A stretch of DNA of 64,000 nucleotides, taken from the NCBI RefSeq assembly GCF_007748115.1, contig NZ_CP036289.1, positions 2,170,001 to 2,234,000 on the forward strand, read 5' to 3'. The position numbers and the translations under genes were made by a program. Positions 3,603-28,661 of the stretch are shown here, piece by piece. The stretch's first letter is position 1. Every line of letters begins with the position of its first letter. This DNA comes from Bremerella volcania. Its GTDB lineage: Bacteria > Planctomycetota > Planctomycetia > Pirellulales > Pirellulaceae. The notes under the pieces were generated by a model, which had not been told where the DNA came from, did not search any database, and saw only the letters and a list, made by a program, of their open reading frames with translations.

Positions 3603-4447
3603 TGCTCCCAAGCAATTTCGCATGCGTCGAAGATTGGTCCTTCGACGCATGTTCGTTTGTAGTCCCAGCTGCCATCTTCCTGGCGGACCGGGGCAACGCA
3701 GGTAAAGCAGATCCCGATACCACATGCCATCGGCGTTTCCAAGGAAACCTGGCAAGGGATCTCTCGCTCGGTCGTTAGCTTGCTGACCGCTTCCATCATC
3801 TTCTCAGGACCACAGCACAGCACTTGGGCCTGGCCGACGCCTTCGGCGATTGCCTGCGCAAGCAGATCGGTCACCAGCCCGTGGTGCCCTGCACTGCCGT
3901 CGTCGGTGCAGATCTTAACGTCCATTCCCGTGGCCTTGAAATCATCGAGGCCGGCGAAGTCCGAGACCGAGCGGGCCCCGTAGCACAGCGTGACCTTCTT
4001 AGGCTTGCCGGTGCTGAAAGGCTGGCTGCCGTACGACTGCTGGCCGAGGACCTGCTTGGCGACCGCCAGGAACGGGGTCTGGCCGATGCCACCGGCAACC
4101 AGTATCAGGTGCTGGGTTTCGGGAATCGTAAAGCCGTTACCCAGCGGGCCCCAGACTTCCAGCTTCTGCCCCGGTTCGAGCTGCTTGAGCCGCGACGTGA
4201 GCTTGCCGTGTACCTGGTAGACGACGTCGACGTACTTGGGCTGTCCATCGTCACCGGCGATCACGTCATACAGAGCGAAGGCGCGTCCCAGCAGCGGATC
4301 GAAGCAGTCGGCAATGCGAACCATGACGAACTGGCCAGGCCGAATCTTCGCGGCGATCTCAGGGGCTTCGAAGCGTACTCGATAGATTCTCGCCGAGAGG
4401 GGAACGTTTTCGACGATCGAAATCGCTTGGAAGTGGAACTGGGACAT
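3596..4447 (-). CDS. pyrK: Dihydroorotate dehydrogenase electron-transfer subunit (PyrK-like)
   Basis: A 283-residue ferredoxin-reductase-fold protein. The FAD-binding barrel covers residues about 5-105 and includes RAFALYDV. The NAD-binding domain (LVAGGIGQTPFLAVAKQ) covers about 113-230. The C-terminal [2Fe-2S] site has Cys242, Cys247, Cys250 and Cys267, the PyrK arrangement. PyrK passes electrons from the class 1B dihydroorotate dehydrogenase PyrD to NAD+. No pyrD is adjacent, so another flavoprotein partner of the same family cannot be excluded. It begins at an ATG at 4447, 24 bp after the end of the upstream pseudouridine synthase, so the two are probably co-transcribed. Confidence 0.88.
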   Translation of the reverse strand: MSQFHFQAISIVENVPLSARIYRVRFEAPEIAAKIRPGQFVMVRIADCFDPLLGRAFALYDVIAGDDGQPKYVDVVYQVHGKLTSRLKQLEPGQKLEVWGPLGNGFTIPETQHLILVAGGIGQTPFLAVAKQVLGQQSYGSQPFSTGKPKKVTLCYGARSVSDFAGLDDFKATGMDVKICTDDGSAGHHGLVTDLLAQAIAEGVGQAQVLCCGPEKMMEAVSKLTTEREIPCQVSLETPMACGIGICFTCVAPVRQEDGSWDYKRTCVEGPIFDACEIAWEHA

Positions 4448-4471: not shown

Positions 4472-5434
4472 CTATTTACGGCGCATCTGCTTCTTCTTGG
4501 AAGCCTGCTTTTGTTTCACGGCTCGCCCCTGACCACGGCGCGACTCGTTAACCGTCGGCGACTGGCCGGTCTTCTGCTTGGTCTTTTTCTTCTTACCACC
4601 GCGGAACGTGGTTCCACCCTTTTTGACCGTCGTCTTGCCTGGGCTGGTGCCGGTCGTGCGGCGACCGGCTGGTTTGCGTTTCGGAGCACCCTTGGCGGAA
4701 CCTGCTTCCGAGGCCTCGCGCAGGGCTTTCACTTCCGAGGGCTTCAATTCCCGGAACGATCCGGCTGGAACGTCACCGAGCTTAAGGGGACCAATGGAAA
4801 TGCGCTTCAGACGCAGGACCTTGTGCCCGACTTTGGCGAGCAGTCGGCGAATTTCGCGATTCTTGCCCTCGCGGAGGACGATCTCAAGGATCGAGCTTTT
4901 GCCCCGTTTCTGTTTCAAGCGGCAGCTTTCGGCTTTGACGAAGCCTTCGGCGATGTAGACGCCGCTTTGGATCATCTTGATCTCTTCAACCGAGACCGAT
5001 CCAGCGACTTCCACGTGATACGTCTTGGGGACGCCGTAACGAGGGTGAGCCAGGTGATTGGCCAACTCGCCATCGTTGGTGATGATGATCAGCCCTTCGC
5101 TCTGGCGGTCGAGACGCCCGATGGTGAACAGCCGCTCGTCTTGCGGGACCAGGTCGATCACGCGGGTTCGACCGGCCTGATCGAAGTTGGTGCTGACCAC
5201 GCCGACCGGCTTGTTCAGGATGAAGTACTGCTTGCGGCGGACGCGAATTCGCTGGCCGTCGACCATGATCTCTTGTTTGGCCGGATCGACGGAGGTGCCC
5301 AGTTCGGTCACGAATTCTCCATCAACTTCGACCCGTCCTTCCTGGATGATCTCTTCGCATTTGCGGCGCGAGCCGATTCCGGCTTCGGCGAGGACTTTGT
5401 GGAGACGAACGAGTGAGGACGATGAACCAGGCAT
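4472..5434 (-). CDS. rluB: RsuA/RluB-family rRNA pseudouridine synthase with basic C-terminal tail
   Basis: A 320-residue protein. The N-terminal S4 RNA-binding domain (RLHKVLAEAGIGSRRKCEEI) covers about 9-55. The pseudouridine synthase domain carries the family motif GRLDRQSEGLIIITNDGEL, with catalytic Asp109. Residues about 245-320 form a low-complexity Lys/Arg/Gly/Thr-rich tail typical of RluB-like enzymes from this phylum and probably contacting RNA. The likely target is a 23S rRNA uridine (RluB modifies U2605 in E. coli), but the site cannot be assigned from sequence. It lies upstream of pyrK on the same strand. Confidence 0.88.
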   Translation of the reverse strand: MPGSSSSLVRLHKVLAEAGIGSRRKCEEIIQEGRVEVDGEFVTELGTSVDPAKQEIMVDGQRIRVRRKQYFILNKPVGVVSTNFDQAGRTRVIDLVPQDERLFTIGRLDRQSEGLIIITNDGELANHLAHPRYGVPKTYHVEVAGSVSVEEIKMIQSGVYIAEGFVKAESCRLKQKRGKSSILEIVLREGKNREIRRLLAKVGHKVLRLKRISIGPLKLGDVPAGSFRELKPSEVKALREASEAGSAKGAPKRKPAGRRTTGTSPGKTTVKKGGTTFRGGKKKKTKQKTGQSPTVNESRRGQGRAVKQKQASKKKQMRRK

Positions 5435-20617: not shown

Positions 20618-20964
20618 TTCGCGAGCCTCTTTGCTCGATTGGAGTTTCGTTTCGTCCACTCAGGAAAGCACGCTGGTTGGCTGCCGGTTGCCAGCGTGTT
20701 TTGGTCATTTGCGCGTTCGTGTCAGACGAAGAATCAAGCAGCTGTGATGTGACGGCGTCGGTGGTGTAACTTATTATAAATTAAAGACTTGTGGTTGGTG
20801 TTGCGGCCGTCTTGAAGGGGTGCCGGAATTGACAATACCCAAGTCTAGGCCTATGTTTCAATAATAAATCCGGCACTTTTGTCGCGCTTCCCGCCCCAAT
20901 TTCCATTGGCCCCCTGGCCATTTCTTTCCCACCCCTTTCTCCCGCAAGCTTGGACACCCTACCC
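20618..20964. other. Intergenic region before the first DUF1559 gene
   Basis: About 350 bp with a terminator-like hairpin at 20665-20703 and an AT-rich stretch TTATTATAAATTAAAG near 20770-20785 that could serve as a -10 region for the DUF1559 gene. Nothing else was recognised. Confidence 0.45.
20665..20703 (+). terminator. Probable terminator of the FG-GAP gene
   Basis: GCACGCTGG and CCAGCGTGT form a stem of about 8-9 bp around a 14-nt loop, followed by TTTTGG. It is placed 50 bp after the stop codon. Confidence 0.6.
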
Positions 20965-22014
20965 ATGCCTATCGCTAAACGTACTGGCTTCACCTTGGTG
21001 GAGCTGTTGGTCGTGATCGCCATCATTGGCGTTCTGATTGCCCTTCTGCTGCCTGCAGTCCAGCAAGCCCGTGAAGCTGCCCGGCGGATGCAATGCACCA
21101 ATAACCAAAAGCAACTCGGCTTGGCCTTCCACAACTACCACGACACGTACAACACGTTGCCGGCGATGAATTATCGCGCTGGCAACGGGGCATCGATCTA
21201 CCAGGGCTATAGCGCCTTGGTTCGGATCTTACCGTTCATTGAGCAAGGGAATCTCTACGATCAGCTCAAAGTCTCGTCAGGAGACTTCTACGAGGCGTGG
21301 GGAGCCACTTCGAACCGAAGTGTTCGTCAAACGCGAGTCGAGGCATTTTTATGTCCCTCGGACATCGCGTTTCCCCAGATCCTTGGCACCGATTCATGGA
21401 AGGATGGTCCTGGCTGTAACTATGCGGTGAGCTATGGTTCGTCGAACCAATGGGCCAATCCCGATACGCAGAACGGAATGTTTCGTGGGCCGGTGAAAGT
21501 GGATTCCAGTGGGAATGAACTGGCTGCCCCGGAATTGGGATTTAATTCGGTGACTGACGGCTTGAGCAATACGCTCATGACCTCTGAGCATCTAACCGGC
21601 GACAACAATGACGACCAGTTGGCCAACGGAAACACTTCCGAACCGAGAATTGGTTCCGACGTACCCACCTGGCAATATCCCACCCAGGCCGATATCGATT
21701 CGTTCGGCGCGAACTGTGCCTCGCAAACAGCTCACAACGGAGAGAACGGCCAGCATTGGATGATGCCGGTGCCCACGCAAACGACCTTCAATACGATTGC
21801 CCCACCAAACTGGAAGTATCCCAACTGCCAGGAGAGCAGCAGCGGAATTGCGTCAGATCGTGATGGGGTTTACACAGCACGCAGTCGTCATCCGGGCGGT
21901 GTGTTGGTCACTCGGGGGGATGCTTCAGCCAGTTTCATTCCTGAAACGATTGACTTGAAAACGTGGCAGTACTTTGGCGGACGAGACGACGGCAACACCG
22001 TCCAACTGCCGTAG
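20965..22014 (+). CDS. DUF1559 protein with type IV pilin-like N-terminus (first of three)
   Basis: 349 residues from the ATG at 20965. The N-terminus is a class III prepilin leader and helix: RTGFTLVELLVVIAIIGVLI, with cleavage expected before Phe and methylation of that Phe by a prepilin peptidase. The following QQAREAARRMQC and the closing HPGGVLVTRGDASASFIPETIDL are hallmarks of DUF1559 (PF07596), a family greatly expanded in Planctomycetes. The role is not settled; a surface fibre or pseudopilus component is plausible. A stem-loop (22048-22079) and a small lipoprotein gene follow. Confidence 0.92.
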   Translation: MPIAKRTGFTLVELLVVIAIIGVLIALLLPAVQQAREAARRMQCTNNQKQLGLAFHNYHDTYNTLPAMNYRAGNGASIYQGYSALVRILPFIEQGNLYDQLKVSSGDFYEAWGATSNRSVRQTRVEAFLCPSDIAFPQILGTDSWKDGPGCNYAVSYGSSNQWANPDTQNGMFRGPVKVDSSGNELAAPELGFNSVTDGLSNTLMTSEHLTGDNNDDQLANGNTSEPRIGSDVPTWQYPTQADIDSFGANCASQTAHNGENGQHWMMPVPTQTTFNTIAPPNWKYPNCQESSSGIASDRDGVYTARSRHPGGVLVTRGDASASFIPETIDLKTWQYFGGRDDGNTVQLP

Positions 22015-22442: not shown

Positions 22443-22720
22443 TCCCTTTTATTGGAACGGGTTAGTTAAATACACAGCGCCAAGCTCTTCTTTGTTAAAA
22501 AGATAAAAAATCAAAATTCAGCTTAGATTCTTGCCGCATTCTGTGGTCTTGGATAGGATGGCAAAACGGACATCGCTCTTCTAGTCTTAGGGCGATTGAT
22601 CGTCTATTGAACTCAAAGCCATCGGCATCAAGGTGCCATCGAGCGATCACCCCCTCCCTTTTTGCTGAACAACATCATCCCCCTTTCTTCCCTTCCGAAT
22701 CACCCCCACAGGAACTGAGT

Positions 22721-23758
22721 ATGCTGCCCTACTCGCCTGGCAAGCGTGGCTTCACGCTTGTCGAACTCTTGGTCGTTATTGCCATCATCGGCGTGTTGAT
22801 TGCCCTGTTGCTGCCTGCCGTACAGCAAGCCCGAGAAGCGGCCCGGCGAAGTCAGTGCACTAACCAACTTAAGCAACTGGGATTGGCGTTGCACAACCAT
22901 CACGATACTTATCAGCACTTTCCACGGCTCGCCGTTCTGGAAGGGCCTTACCATATCCGCGTTGGGGCCATGATTCCGCTGCTGCCGTTCATGGAGCAAA
23001 ACGCGCTTGCGGAGCAGATCAAGAACTACGACACGTCGGTCTGGAGCAGTCCCCCTTCCCCATGGGATACGTCCTTTTCTCCTTGGAAACAACGCATTGA
23101 TACGTTGCTTTGTCCGTCAGACACGGGGGCAGATAAGACCTACCGTGCTGACCGTCCCGTGGCGCCTAGTAGCTACCGGTTCTCGATCGGTGACTCGTAT
23201 CTCGATGCCTACAACCCTCAGGATAACAAAACGAATTACCGAGGTATCTTCAGTGCGAAGCTCGATCAGAAGTTTCGTGACATCACGGATGGGACGAGCA
23301 ATACCATCATGATGGCTGAACGCCTGACCGATTTCCAAACACCGTTCATCAATCAGACCCACGCAAACAGCATATCTTTGAGCGACCCCAGCACATGTTG
23401 GGATGCAGTTTCGACGACCAAACGCGATCAGTTTTCCAGTGGGGCGAACCCTGCTGCAAGCCAGCGTTGGAATGATGGGCAAGCTTGCTTTACGGGCTTC
23501 AATACCGTGATTGCTCCGAATGGTCCTTCCTGCTGGGACAGCACCAACGAGAATGCAGACCGCGCTATAACGACGGTTTCCAGTAATCATCCCGGGGGCA
23601 TTTGTGCGGTACTGGCAGATGCCTCGGTTCGATTCATTCCCGAGACCATTGATACCGGCGACATGACCCAAGCGCAGCCAACTTCAGGACAAAGTCCCTA
23701 TGGTGTTTGGGGTGCGCTGGGTAGCAAGAGCGGTGGCGAGACCAAGCCGCTTCCATAA
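22721..23758 (+). CDS. DUF1559 protein with type IV pilin-like N-terminus (second of three)
   Basis: 345 residues from ATG 22721, which has AGGAAC at -13 to -8; a longer frame from 22607 lacks this. The prepilin motif is KRGFTLVELLVVIAIIGVLI, then the QQAREAARRSQC segment. The family end motif is HPGGICAVLADASVRFIPET. Residues 40-330 hold the DUF1559 globular domain with DGTSNTIMMAERL in the middle. It is one of three copies in 8 kb whose first 50 residues are nearly identical while the rest differ. A strong hairpin and a lipoprotein gene follow. Confidence 0.92.
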   Translation: MLPYSPGKRGFTLVELLVVIAIIGVLIALLLPAVQQAREAARRSQCTNQLKQLGLALHNHHDTYQHFPRLAVLEGPYHIRVGAMIPLLPFMEQNALAEQIKNYDTSVWSSPPSPWDTSFSPWKQRIDTLLCPSDTGADKTYRADRPVAPSSYRFSIGDSYLDAYNPQDNKTNYRGIFSAKLDQKFRDITDGTSNTIMMAERLTDFQTPFINQTHANSISLSDPSTCWDAVSTTKRDQFSSGANPAASQRWNDGQACFTGFNTVIAPNGPSCWDSTNENADRAITTVSSNHPGGICAVLADASVRFIPETIDTGDMTQAQPTSGQSPYGVWGALGSKSGGETKPLP

Positions 23759-25453: not shown

Positions 25454-25572
25454 GAGCATTCTCGAGCAAGGTAGGCGTATCAAGGTGGGGCTTGAGAATC
25501 TATCTTAACACCTGACGTTTCCCGGGCAAATAACGAACCCGCAAGGGATTCCAAGCATTTTTTTCGATCGTT

Positions 25573-25599
25573 TGTCACACCTCGGGGAAACTGCTCGTC
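25573..25599 (+). promoter_or_regulatory. Predicted ECF41 sigma factor promoter
   Basis: TGTCACA (25573-25579) and CGTC (25596-25599) are separated by 16 bp. These are the -35 and -10 elements reported for ECF41-type sigma factors. The site lies about 57 bp before the CMD-like gene, the first gene of a pair that ends in an ECF41 sigma gene, so it predicts autoregulation. Confidence 0.75.
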
Positions 25600-25655
25600 T
25601 GGTTAGGTGACAGGAGACAACTTATCCCAACGACCAGGTAACCGAGGAGACGATC

Positions 25656-26168
25656 ATGGATGCCCAAGAGGCAAGAGCGAGCCTGGAGCAGTTCGCTCAG
25701 CACTACGATTACGATAACGGCTACATCGTTCAACTTCTGGAGGACTCTCCGGAAGCATTTCAGGCCTTCGCGGCCGCCCAGGCCATGCCGAACATCCATA
25801 AGGCGTTGCCGTTGGATGCGTTTTTCGTCGCCAAGACTGCCGTGATGAAAACGGAAGACTGTGGCCCGTGCCTGAACCTGAGTCTGAAGATGGGGGTCGA
25901 GCAAGGCATCGATCGCGAACTGCTCAAGATCGCCGTGAAGGATCCGCAGTCACTGCCGCAGAAACTCCGTGACGTTCACGATCATGTGGTGGCCGTGATT
26001 CGTAACGAAAACGATGACGCCGATCGCATGGAGCGAATCCGGAATCACTACGGCATCGAGGCCTTCGCCGAACTGGCCGTGGTGATCGTCGGGTGTCGCA
26101 TCTATCCGACGCTGAAACGAGCCATGGGGATGGCCAATCACTGTGAACTTGCGAAACTAGATTTCTAG
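25656..26168 (+). CDS. Carboxymuconolactone decarboxylase/AhpD-like protein
   Basis: 170 residues, ATG 25656 with GAGGAG upstream. An all-helical protein with a CxxC pair (Cys69-Gly-Pro-Cys72) inside KTEDCGPCLNLSLKMGVEQGI, preceded by an acidic residue, the redox motif of the CMD/AhpD family. The C-terminal AVVIVGCRIYPTLKRAMGMA is helical. CMD genes are the commonest partners of ECF41 sigma factors, which are said to sit beside carboxymuconolactone decarboxylases, oxidoreductases or epimerases. That fits the next gene, 60 bp downstream. Likely substrate: an organic peroxide or quinone-like compound, unproven. Confidence 0.8.
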   Translation: MDAQEARASLEQFAQHYDYDNGYIVQLLEDSPEAFQAFAAAQAMPNIHKALPLDAFFVAKTAVMKTEDCGPCLNLSLKMGVEQGIDRELLKIAVKDPQSLPQKLRDVHDHVVAVIRNENDDADRMERIRNHYGIEAFAELAVVIVGCRIYPTLKRAMGMANHCELAKLDF

Positions 26169-26228
26169 GGTTTCGTCGTCTGTTGGTGACAGGACAAACG
26201 CCCTTCCGCGCTTTGAGGAATCGACGTG

Positions 26229-27098
26229 ATGGTAACCGGCGATCAGTTTGAACGTCTGCGGCACGATTTGATTGGATTCTGCTATCGAATGCTGGGAAGT
26301 CTTCCCGATGCCGAGGACATCGCCCAGGAAGCGTACCTCCGCTGGGAACAGGCCGGGCGGCCGGAATTGGATTCGCCCAAAAGTTGGTATCTGCGCGTGT
26401 GTGCGCGGCTTTGCTTGGACCGCGTGAAGTCTGTCCGTTATCAACGCGAGAAATATATCGGTCCCTGGTTGCCAGAGCCAATCATGGACGATCATGCCGA
26501 TCGCGCGGAACTCGACGAAACGCTTTCAATCGCACTCATGCTGATGATCGAACGCTTGAAACCCGCCGAACGGGCCGCGTTCATTTTGCACGATCTGTTC
26601 GGCTATGAGTTTCCAGAGGTCGCCGAAATCCTCGGACTGGAAGCCGCCAATTGCCGTCAACTCGCCAAGCGGGCCAGGGTTCACCTGCGTGGCGAAAAGC
26701 CGCGCGGAGGGGCCGATCCGGCAGGCATCAAGCGAATCTCCGACGCTTTTTTTAAGGCAGTAAACGCCGGGGATTTGGATCGCCTGCGTGACGTCCTGTC
26801 GAAAGACGTCGTACTGCATGCCGATAGTGGCGGCAAAGTGAGCGCCGCGCGCGACCTGATCGTGGGCTTCCACTCGGTAACGACTTTCATGATTCGAGTC
26901 TTCCGCAACGCTCAGCACGAAGTCAAGATCACGTTTCGTCCGGCCTGGTTCAACGGAGCCCCTGGCGTGGTCAGTTACCAGGGGGAAAAGATCATTGCCG
27001 CCTACCACTTCGAAGTGGTCAACGGCAAGATTGCCTCGCTATTCGTCTACCGAAATCCCGACAAGCTGGCGATCTTCGAGCAAACCTCGGCGAGTTAG
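26229..27098 (+). CDS. ECF41-group RNA polymerase sigma factor with SnoaL-like C-terminal domain
   Basis: 289 residues from ATG 26229, with GAGGAA upstream. Sigma region 2 is at about 5-70 (FCYRMLGSLPDAEDIAQEAY) and region 4 at about 95-155 (LFGYEFPEVAEILGLEAANC). Between them is WLPEP (80-84), the ECF41 linker signature. Residues 165-289 are a SnoaL-like domain carrying DSGGK (199-203; usual motif DGGGK) and NPDKL (276-280). In studied ECF41 factors this extension controls sigma activity and no anti-sigma factor is used. It shares an operon with the CMD-like gene. A matching promoter is found upstream of that gene. Confidence 0.93.
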   Translation: MVTGDQFERLRHDLIGFCYRMLGSLPDAEDIAQEAYLRWEQAGRPELDSPKSWYLRVCARLCLDRVKSVRYQREKYIGPWLPEPIMDDHADRAELDETLSIALMLMIERLKPAERAAFILHDLFGYEFPEVAEILGLEAANCRQLAKRARVHLRGEKPRGGADPAGIKRISDAFFKAVNAGDLDRLRDVLSKDVVLHADSGGKVSAARDLIVGFHSVTTFMIRVFRNAQHEVKITFRPAWFNGAPGVVSYQGEKIIAAYHFEVVNGKIASLFVYRNPDKLAIFEQTSAS

Positions 27099-27590: not shown

Positions 27591-28661
27591 CTACGGAAGT
27601 TCGATGACCTGTCCATCGTCACGCGTCACGAGCCGCGCTTGGAGGTCCATCGACATCGTCTCCGGGAGGAAACGCACCGAGCCATCGGCCAGCAAAGTCA
27701 TCACGCCGCCCGGGTGGGCGGAGATCAACGGCATGTTGGTACTGGCATTGTCACAGATCCCGTCTGAACCGCAGTTGCCAGGCCAGTTCGGCCAGCCGGT
27801 TCCAGGGCGTTTCTTTTGGTTGATGGGATAGCGAATGGTGACTTGATTGAACGTTCGCAGATCACCTCCATTGCCGGTTTTGGGTGGGGCGTTGGTCGAA
27901 CGCCAGCCGATGATCCAGCCGTGGCGAGCGCTATTGCGATAGTCGCGTTTCGACCCATCGGCGGTGATCAGGAAGTCGCTGATTTCACCAATCACGGCCG
28001 TGTTCGATGTACCGTCGGTGATTGATTCCAACCCGAGCTTACCACTGGGAATCATTACGCCACCACCGCTGGCGATGCCCCCAGAGCAACAGCCGGCCGA
28101 CGAGCCAGGTGTGTTGATGCGGCTTTCAGTGTAATTGGGGATAAGTCCATCCACGGCACCCGAGATCGCGGCATAGCTGGCCGCCATGATAGGACCATTT
28201 GAGTTGGGACTGACGCAAAACTCTTCGAGAGGCGAAGAAGGACAAAGATAGCCATCGATCAAGACATTCTTCGAGGCAGCCGTATTGTTCGATGCATTCG
28301 TTCCCCAGCCAGAACCGCCGCCGAGGTTGAACTTGTCGTACAGGGCGTTTTGTTCGATGAATGGAAGCAGGTAGACCATCCAGGAACTGCCCCACGCACT
28401 TCCTGTGGCGTGTGTACCGAATGGGATTTGATCGACGGCCCCACCTGGAGGGACAACCCCATATGTGTCGTGGAAGTTGTGAATTCCCAGGCCCAATTGC
28501 TTCATGTTGTTGCTGCACTGCATCCGCCGGGCAGCTTCGCGGGCTTGTTGTACGGCGGGCAGAAGCAGAGCAATCAACACGCCAATGATTGCAATGACGA
28601 CTAAGAGCTCTACCAGGGTAAAACCAAGTCGTGTGCCTGAATTGCGACAGTGACTTGCCAT
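27591..28661 (-). CDS. DUF1559 protein with type IV pilin-like N-terminus (third of three)
   Basis: 356 residues. The prepilin motif is RLGFTLVELLVVIAIIGVLI, followed by QQAREAARRMQCSNNMKQ. A Gly/Ser-rich patch (GGGSGWGTNASNNTAAS) lies near residue 115 and a cysteine pair (AGCCSGG) near 195. The family ends with ISAHPGGVMTLLADGSVRFLPETM. It belongs to the same family as the genes at 20965 and 22721 but is on the opposite strand. A terminal stem-loop and a lipoprotein gene follow. Confidence 0.92.
   Translation of the reverse strand: MASHCRNSGTRLGFTLVELLVVIAIIGVLIALLLPAVQQAREAARRMQCSNNMKQLGLGIHNFHDTYGVVPPGGAVDQIPFGTHATGSAWGSSWMVYLLPFIEQNALYDKFNLGGGSGWGTNASNNTAASKNVLIDGYLCPSSPLEEFCVSPNSNGPIMAASYAAISGAVDGLIPNYTESRINTPGSSAGCCSGGIASGGGVMIPSGKLGLESITDGTSNTAVIGEISDFLITADGSKRDYRNSARHGWIIGWRSTNAPPKTGNGGDLRTFNQVTIRYPINQKKRPGTGWPNWPGNCGSDGICDNASTNMPLISAHPGGVMTLLADGSVRFLPETMSMDLQARLVTRDDGQVIELP

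Follow-up and report, generated by a model that had tools for sequence, protein, structure and literature searches.

Among ECF sigma factors the ECF41 group is widespread, and its output has been described in three species as one linked operon. Two of these systems, Ecf41Bli of B. licheniformis and Ecf41Rsp of R. sphaeroides (Wecke et al. 2012, PMC3426412), resemble the operon described here in domain order, in the WLPEP motif, in the presence of a C-terminal extension and in a CMD-family partner, and in both, as here, TGTCACA-N16-CGTC stands before the CMD gene; a single target was reported for each (PMC3426412), whereas at the present locus a second, unlinked promoter before a cupin gene is predicted. 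The third system, RpoE9-SMb20029 of S. meliloti, also has a CMD gene upstream of the ECF41 gene and probably cotranscribed with it; its start site has been mapped, the promoter motif is the same, and its transcriptome has one target only, against the two predicted for our sigma factor (PMC6180224). In other species ECF41 activity is controlled by the C-terminal extension and not by an anti-sigma factor (PMC3426412, PMC8999054). Planctomycetes are absent from the phyla surveyed by Wecke et al., in whose collection the order COE-ECF accounts for 29% of cases, the promoter is present in 97 of 107, and four cupin neighbours appear as miscellaneous operon partners (PMC3426412).

Action of an ECF41 in trans is not new as such. 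M. tuberculosis SigJ, which carries DSNGK at the DGGGK position, acts in trans on sigI according to PMC4821874, which cites Homerova 2008; its target as given there is another sigma gene, whereas the target predicted here is a conserved cupin locus. Azospirillum RpoE10, an ECF41, has effects past its own locus, on lateral flagella, as Dubey 2020 is summarized in PMC8999054 and PMC12826043, and the target functions named in those summaries differ from the ones predicted here. In Methylobacterium, two ECF41 loci (L161 and L186) include an SDR gene, L186 has a cupin gene as well, and L161 holds four copies of TGTCACA-N16-CGTC, on both strands, within 7.8 kb; multi-promoter ECF41 loci thus exist outside the Planctomycetes.

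Here we describe an operon in a planctomycete genome, found in a 64-kb stretch of DNA that was analysed as a whole and that we call the window. Everything inside the window is a textbook ECF41 operon, and the operon itself is of the known kind. The departure is, very probably, a conserved unlinked target, contrary to the published single-target model. We believe, with considerable confidence, that this is a self-amplifying CMD-sigma operon of the SigJ type, and that its sigma factor, the only ECF41 of the genome, also drives an unlinked cupin gene in trans through a retained orphan promoter. Such a target, conserved and preceded by an exact promoter, would offer a testable second output and a hint at the physiological role of the system, and it would make a clean case of a sigma factor inheriting the promoter of a lost paralogue.

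The operon, its sigma factor and its promoter

The operon (window positions 25573-27098; Table 1) consists of a promoter element, a partner gene and, after a gap of 57 bp, the sigma gene. The first-pass annotation had recognized the latter as an ECF41, and the protein families confirm this identity. Against NF007214 ('sigma factor SigJ') the protein scores 310.8 bits, above the cut-off of 271, which places it in the SigJ subfamily; against TIGR02957 (SigX4) it scores 277 bits, under the cut-off of 323. Pfam finds Sigma70_r2, Sigma70_r4_2 and SnoaL_2 (27.1 bits, cut-off 27.0), the protein carries WLPEP, DSGGK and NPDKL, and the COE gene expected beside an ECF41 gene is represented by the CMD/AhpD-fold partner with its CxxC pair. 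The closest solved structure by sequence is that of M. tuberculosis SigJ (PDB 5xe7, E 6e-45); an AlphaFold model of the sigma factor is moderate (pLDDT 72.9, pTM 0.42), and no claims are built on it. The genome encodes this single ECF41, the remaining sigma matches being far weaker.

The promoter is of the TGTCACA-N16(±1)-CGTC form that precedes COE/ECF41 operons, with both elements exact, a 16-bp spacer and 56 bp between the element and the ATG of the partner gene. It is the single match to TGTCACA-N14-18-CGTC across the window, where shuffles predict 0.19 and 17 of 100 shuffles contain at least one, so that the site taken alone is only mildly unusual. The operon occurs in eight congeneric species, counting the window's own, and each of them keeps TGTCACA-N15-TCGTCTG, with an unconserved spacer, 52 to 69 bp upstream of the partner gene; TGGT follows CGTC in seven of the eight. 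Identity to the window's versions in these congeners is 64-88% for the partner and 70-91% for the sigma factor. Judged by this conservation footprint, the promoter is real. The element had been read as an ECF41 promoter in the first-pass annotation, and that reading stands; self-activation of the operon, proposed at the same time, is strongly suggested by the footprint.

Several minor features surround the promoter. All eight congeners have a T-tract some 10-14 bp ahead of the -35 element. GTGACA, inverted after the -10 element and repeated before the sigma gene, was considered as an operator and rejected, as it is confined to the window's species; the repeat itself, GGTGACAGGA-ACAA at 25605-25620 and again at 26184-26198, gives an inverted TGTCAC and is not conserved in the congeners. 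Rfam gave no match to RNA elements near the operon, and a search for housekeeping promoters returned a single sigma-70-like match, which lies on the minus strand and is no more than shuffles yield.

Table 1. Features of the ECF41 operon (window coordinates) and the unlinked cupin gene (genome coordinates)
Feature	Coordinates	Strand	Basis or remark
T-tract upstream of -35, possibly UP-element-like	25558..25564	+	T-rich run in 8/8 congeners; putative function
-35 element TGTCACA of the ECF41 promoter	25573..25579	+	exact match; unchanged in 8/8 congeners
-10 element with flanks, TCGTCTGGT, core CGTC 25596-25599	25595..25603	+	TCGTCTG invariant, spacer fully divergent
Putative RBS GAGGAG of partner gene	25644..25649	+	from sequence; ATG 6 bp downstream
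Partner gene, 170 aa, CMD/AhpD fold with CGPC	25656..26168	+	ORF; family and predicted fold
CGPC codons, Cys69-Cys72	25860..25871	+	both cysteines kept in 17/17 homologues
Putative RBS GAGGA of sigma gene	26215..26219	+	sequence
ECF41 sigma gene, 290 aa, GTG start (ATG at 26229)	26226..27098	+	NF007214; Pfam domains
WLPEP linker motif codons	26466..26480	+	residues 81-85; 21 planctomycete ECF41s all have W.PEP
SnoaL_2 C-terminal extension, best-matched stretch	26745..26987	+	PF12680, residues 174-254
DSGGK codons (DGGGK variant)	26823..26837	+	residues 200-204
NPDKL codons	27054..27068	+	residues 277-281
Secreted Cupin_2 gene, unlinked to operon	G000 C1:6481927-6482367	minus	exact ECF41 promoter upstream

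A second promoter before an unlinked cupin gene

The first-pass annotation had proposed a genome-wide search for TGTCACA-N16-CGTC as a check, but had overlooked the second, unlinked target described here. The window's own genome (G000) contains four exact matches: that of the operon, two inside long ORFs (L001 and L003), which were treated as chance and set aside as promoters, and one (L098; G000 C1:6482420-6482446, minus strand) 52 bp before a Cupin_2 gene. We call this cupin secreted on account of a signal-peptide-like N terminus, judged by eye. The exact cupin promoter recurs in G001, G002 and G008, and in the alignment of these four genomes TGTCACA and TCGTC are invariant and the flanks have diverged. 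G005 has the ECF41 operon, yet no such promoter before its cupin. In the G005 locus concerned (L116, a cupin-SDR locus), what looks like another sigma factor gene precedes the cupin, at about 4760-5400.

Across the genus there are 33 exact matches at spacing 16, against 10.1 per spacing at 18-32, the mean of those 15 other spacings (p 1e-8). When the operon, cupin and SDR sites are subtracted, 20 matches at spacing 16 are left against the same expectation of 10.1 (p 0.004), and further targets are likely among them. In two congeners an exact intergenic match with conserved flanks, followed after about 115 bp by a short ORF, is possibly a third target (L053, G004 C9:1319163-1319189, minus; L075, G007 C14:313014-313040, plus). 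In G006, an exact TGTCACA-N16-CGTC-TGGA (L102, C259:150764-150790, minus) precedes a lone SDR gene that is unlinked to the sole ECF41 of that genome.

The relation between the cupin promoter and ECF41 extends through the class. The sample comprised 397 Planctomycetia genomes, with cupin homologues taken at E<=1e-28 and ECF41s at E<=1e-35, and the element was scored in the 250 bp upstream of the cupin at N15-17 with at most one mismatch. It was present at 20 of 23 loci with a linked ECF41, at 23 of 40 with an ECF41 only elsewhere in the genome, and at none of 22 in genomes without ECF41 (unlinked versus none, Fisher p 1.6e-6, for sequences that are related). For the 49 loci that form the supported clade of cupin orthologues, the corresponding counts are 20/21, 22/23 and 0/5 (unlinked versus none, p 6e-5, likewise for related sequences), and the five loci without ECF41, from four genomes, are scattered at several places in the tree. 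Under a Markov null the chance of the element is 0.7% per upstream region; this null replaced a control with other spacings, which was dropped as contaminated because TGTCACA is itself present in the cupin upstream regions. Eleven unlinked loci with the element belong to nine single-contig genomes (G000, G001, G008, G150, G196, G226, G256, G298 and G465), where the absent linkage cannot be put down to missing contigs. A phylogenetically strict independent-pairs test, which had seven supported pairs, was non-significant, the promoter differing in 1.5 of them on average, with every differing pair in the expected direction and none contrary. Since presence of the element tracks presence of ECF41, it is very probable that the ECF41s of Planctomycetia control this unlinked cupin locus in trans.

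The main competing explanation is that the sigma factor is a strict single-target ECF41 serving its own CMD-sigma operon alone, with the cupin element either a relic of a lost cupin-linked ECF41 or a chance match. This would agree with the single targets reported for the three systems described above (PMC3426412, PMC6180224); of three weaker candidate promoters tested in B. licheniformis, none worked (PMC3426412). A relic, however, is expected to decay, whereas the element is intact in all but one of the unlinked orthologues, against none of those without ECF41, and is invariant in the genus despite its diverged flanks; chance, at roughly 0.7% per region, fares no better. We therefore consider a strict single-target factor unlikely. 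Somewhat less likely still is that another ECF sigma factor of overlapping specificity, and not the ECF41, reads the cupin promoter. At least nine further ECF-like sigma genes are present in the genome, and the -10 elements of ECF promoters are generally alike, but TGTCACA is described as specific to ECF41 (PMC3426412) and the element comes and goes with ECF41 across genomes. Control of the cupin by the ECF41 of the CMD operon remains the most likely reading.

Proposed promoter capture and a model for the regulon

How an unlinked gene could have come under this sigma factor is suggested by the cupin locus of relatives. In other Pirellulales (L087, L089 and L090) the order is promoter-cupin-ECF41-(DoxX)-SDR, an operon with its own, different ECF41, and the congener G007 has this arrangement in full (L085) besides its CMD operon. 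In G001, G002 and G008 DoxX comes straight after the cupin without an intervening sigma gene, and in G000 the cupin stands alone. Counted along the strand of its sigma gene, the locus L090 (G112) has at position 4069 a second exact ECF41 promoter within the cupin-ECF41-SDR genes. In the ECF41 tree the CMD-linked factors (the genus and the MAG L140, support 99), the cupin-linked factors (100) and the FAD-oxidoreductase-linked factors (97) form separate clades. The simplest history would be that the cupin-linked sigma gene was lost while its promoter stayed.

The promoter flanks are consistent with such a history. Outside the genus, cupin promoters read TGTCACA-A and CGTC-CTTG in 18 of 19 linked and 10 of 17 unlinked cases. 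In G000, G001, G002 and G008 they read TGTCACA-(C/T), with CGTC followed by TTGT, CGGT, TGGT or TGTT; these flanks are close to those of the CMD operon promoters, seven of eight of which have C or T after TGTCACA and seven of eight TGGT after CGTC. G007, where the cupin-linked factor is retained, has a CTTC flank at its cupin promoter. The flanks in the genus fit a takeover by the CMD-linked factor, in about four related species that represent about one evolutionary event. More broadly, we lean towards the view that the ECF41s of Planctomycetia run multi-locus regulons that include a conserved secreted cupin in trans, with or without DoxX and SDR, and that promoters orphaned by loss of the neighbouring sigma gene are kept and retuned to an ECF41 of another clade elsewhere in the genome, so that the regulon grows by capture.

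A general scheme can be proposed on this basis. ECF41 holoenzyme would initiate at TGTCACA-N15-TCGTCTGGT and produce one transcript for the CMD/AhpD-fold thiol enzyme and the sigma factor; with the sigma factor encoded on its own transcript, the circuit would amplify itself. From what is known of the family (PMC3426412, PMC8999054), the SnoaL_2 extension would restrain the sigma factor until a signal arrives, and we infer that the window's factor is governed by its own extension in this way. Once released, the sigma factor would act on its own promoter, raising the levels of partner and sigma factor, and in trans on the cupin promoter, the elements of which are an exact copy of those of the operon. 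In the genus, the sigma gene local to the cupin would mostly have been lost, and the orphan promoter, apparently kept, would have been captured by the CMD-linked ECF41. The products are a putative CGPC thiol enzyme and a secreted cupin, joined in relatives by an NAD(P)-binding SDR and DoxX; together they point to a possible role in redox or electrophile handling.

The partner protein and the regulatory extension

The partner had been described in the first-pass annotation as CMD-like, a description that is right as to fold and falls short of the curated family. At E 0.001 the protein has no match in Pfam or NCBIfam, and it reaches 12.7 of the 23 bits needed for Pfam CMD (PF02627; E 0.13); among 17 relatives of the partner, nine match CMD at E<0.1, the best at 5.6e-5. 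The AlphaFold model (pLDDT 91.7, pTM 0.87) has the all-helical CMD/AhpD fold and aligns from end to end with CMD and AhpD structures (VIA-align, 161-166 residues), with Z 14.9 for each of Bmp8 (166 residues, rmsd 3.5), SMU.961 and pneumococcal AhpD. The family has an invariant CGxC pair, CGPC in the window, and an invariant third cysteine, and it also adjoins ECF41 genes in the MAG L140, Acidobacteria, Alphaproteobacteria and Verrucomicrobia. The CMD/AhpD assignment holds at the level of fold; thiol-enzyme activity is putative. The AhpD histidine four residues past CxxC, presumably H137 in M. tuberculosis AhpD, is absent, the position being Ser76 in the window's protein and no histidine in the 17 relatives.

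Linkage of partner and sigma factor is constant in the eight congeners, in the MAG L140 and in other phyla, and the cysteine pair could sense redox; the partner might on these grounds be more than a target and serve the sigma factor as a redox-dependent anti-sigma factor or sensor. We find this improbable: COE proteins were without effect on ECF41 activity according to Wecke et al. (PMC3426412), the S. meliloti authors called such a role unlikely (PMC6180224), and many ECF41s have unrelated partners beside them.

Within the extension of the sigma factor, the motif DSGGK had been suggested to tune the C-terminal domain. Among 80 ECF41s of diverse phyla, 12 have DSGGK, 51 DGGGK and five DSGGL; DSGGK is found in two of the eight congeners, in a context identical to that of the DGGGK versions, and SigJ has the DSNGK mentioned above. 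This is ordinary variation, which leaves the suggestion unsupported, and we see no sign in these sequences that DSGGK marks differing regulation. Although the motif lies in an extension whose N-terminal part other ECF41s need for activity (PMC3426412), an adjustment particular to this sigma factor is highly improbable for a motif so widespread, which swaps with DGGGK inside the genus with its context unchanged.

The operon is flanked by genes at 20950-22014, 22607-23758 and 27591-28661, the proteins of which carry a pilin-like N-methylation signal near the start.
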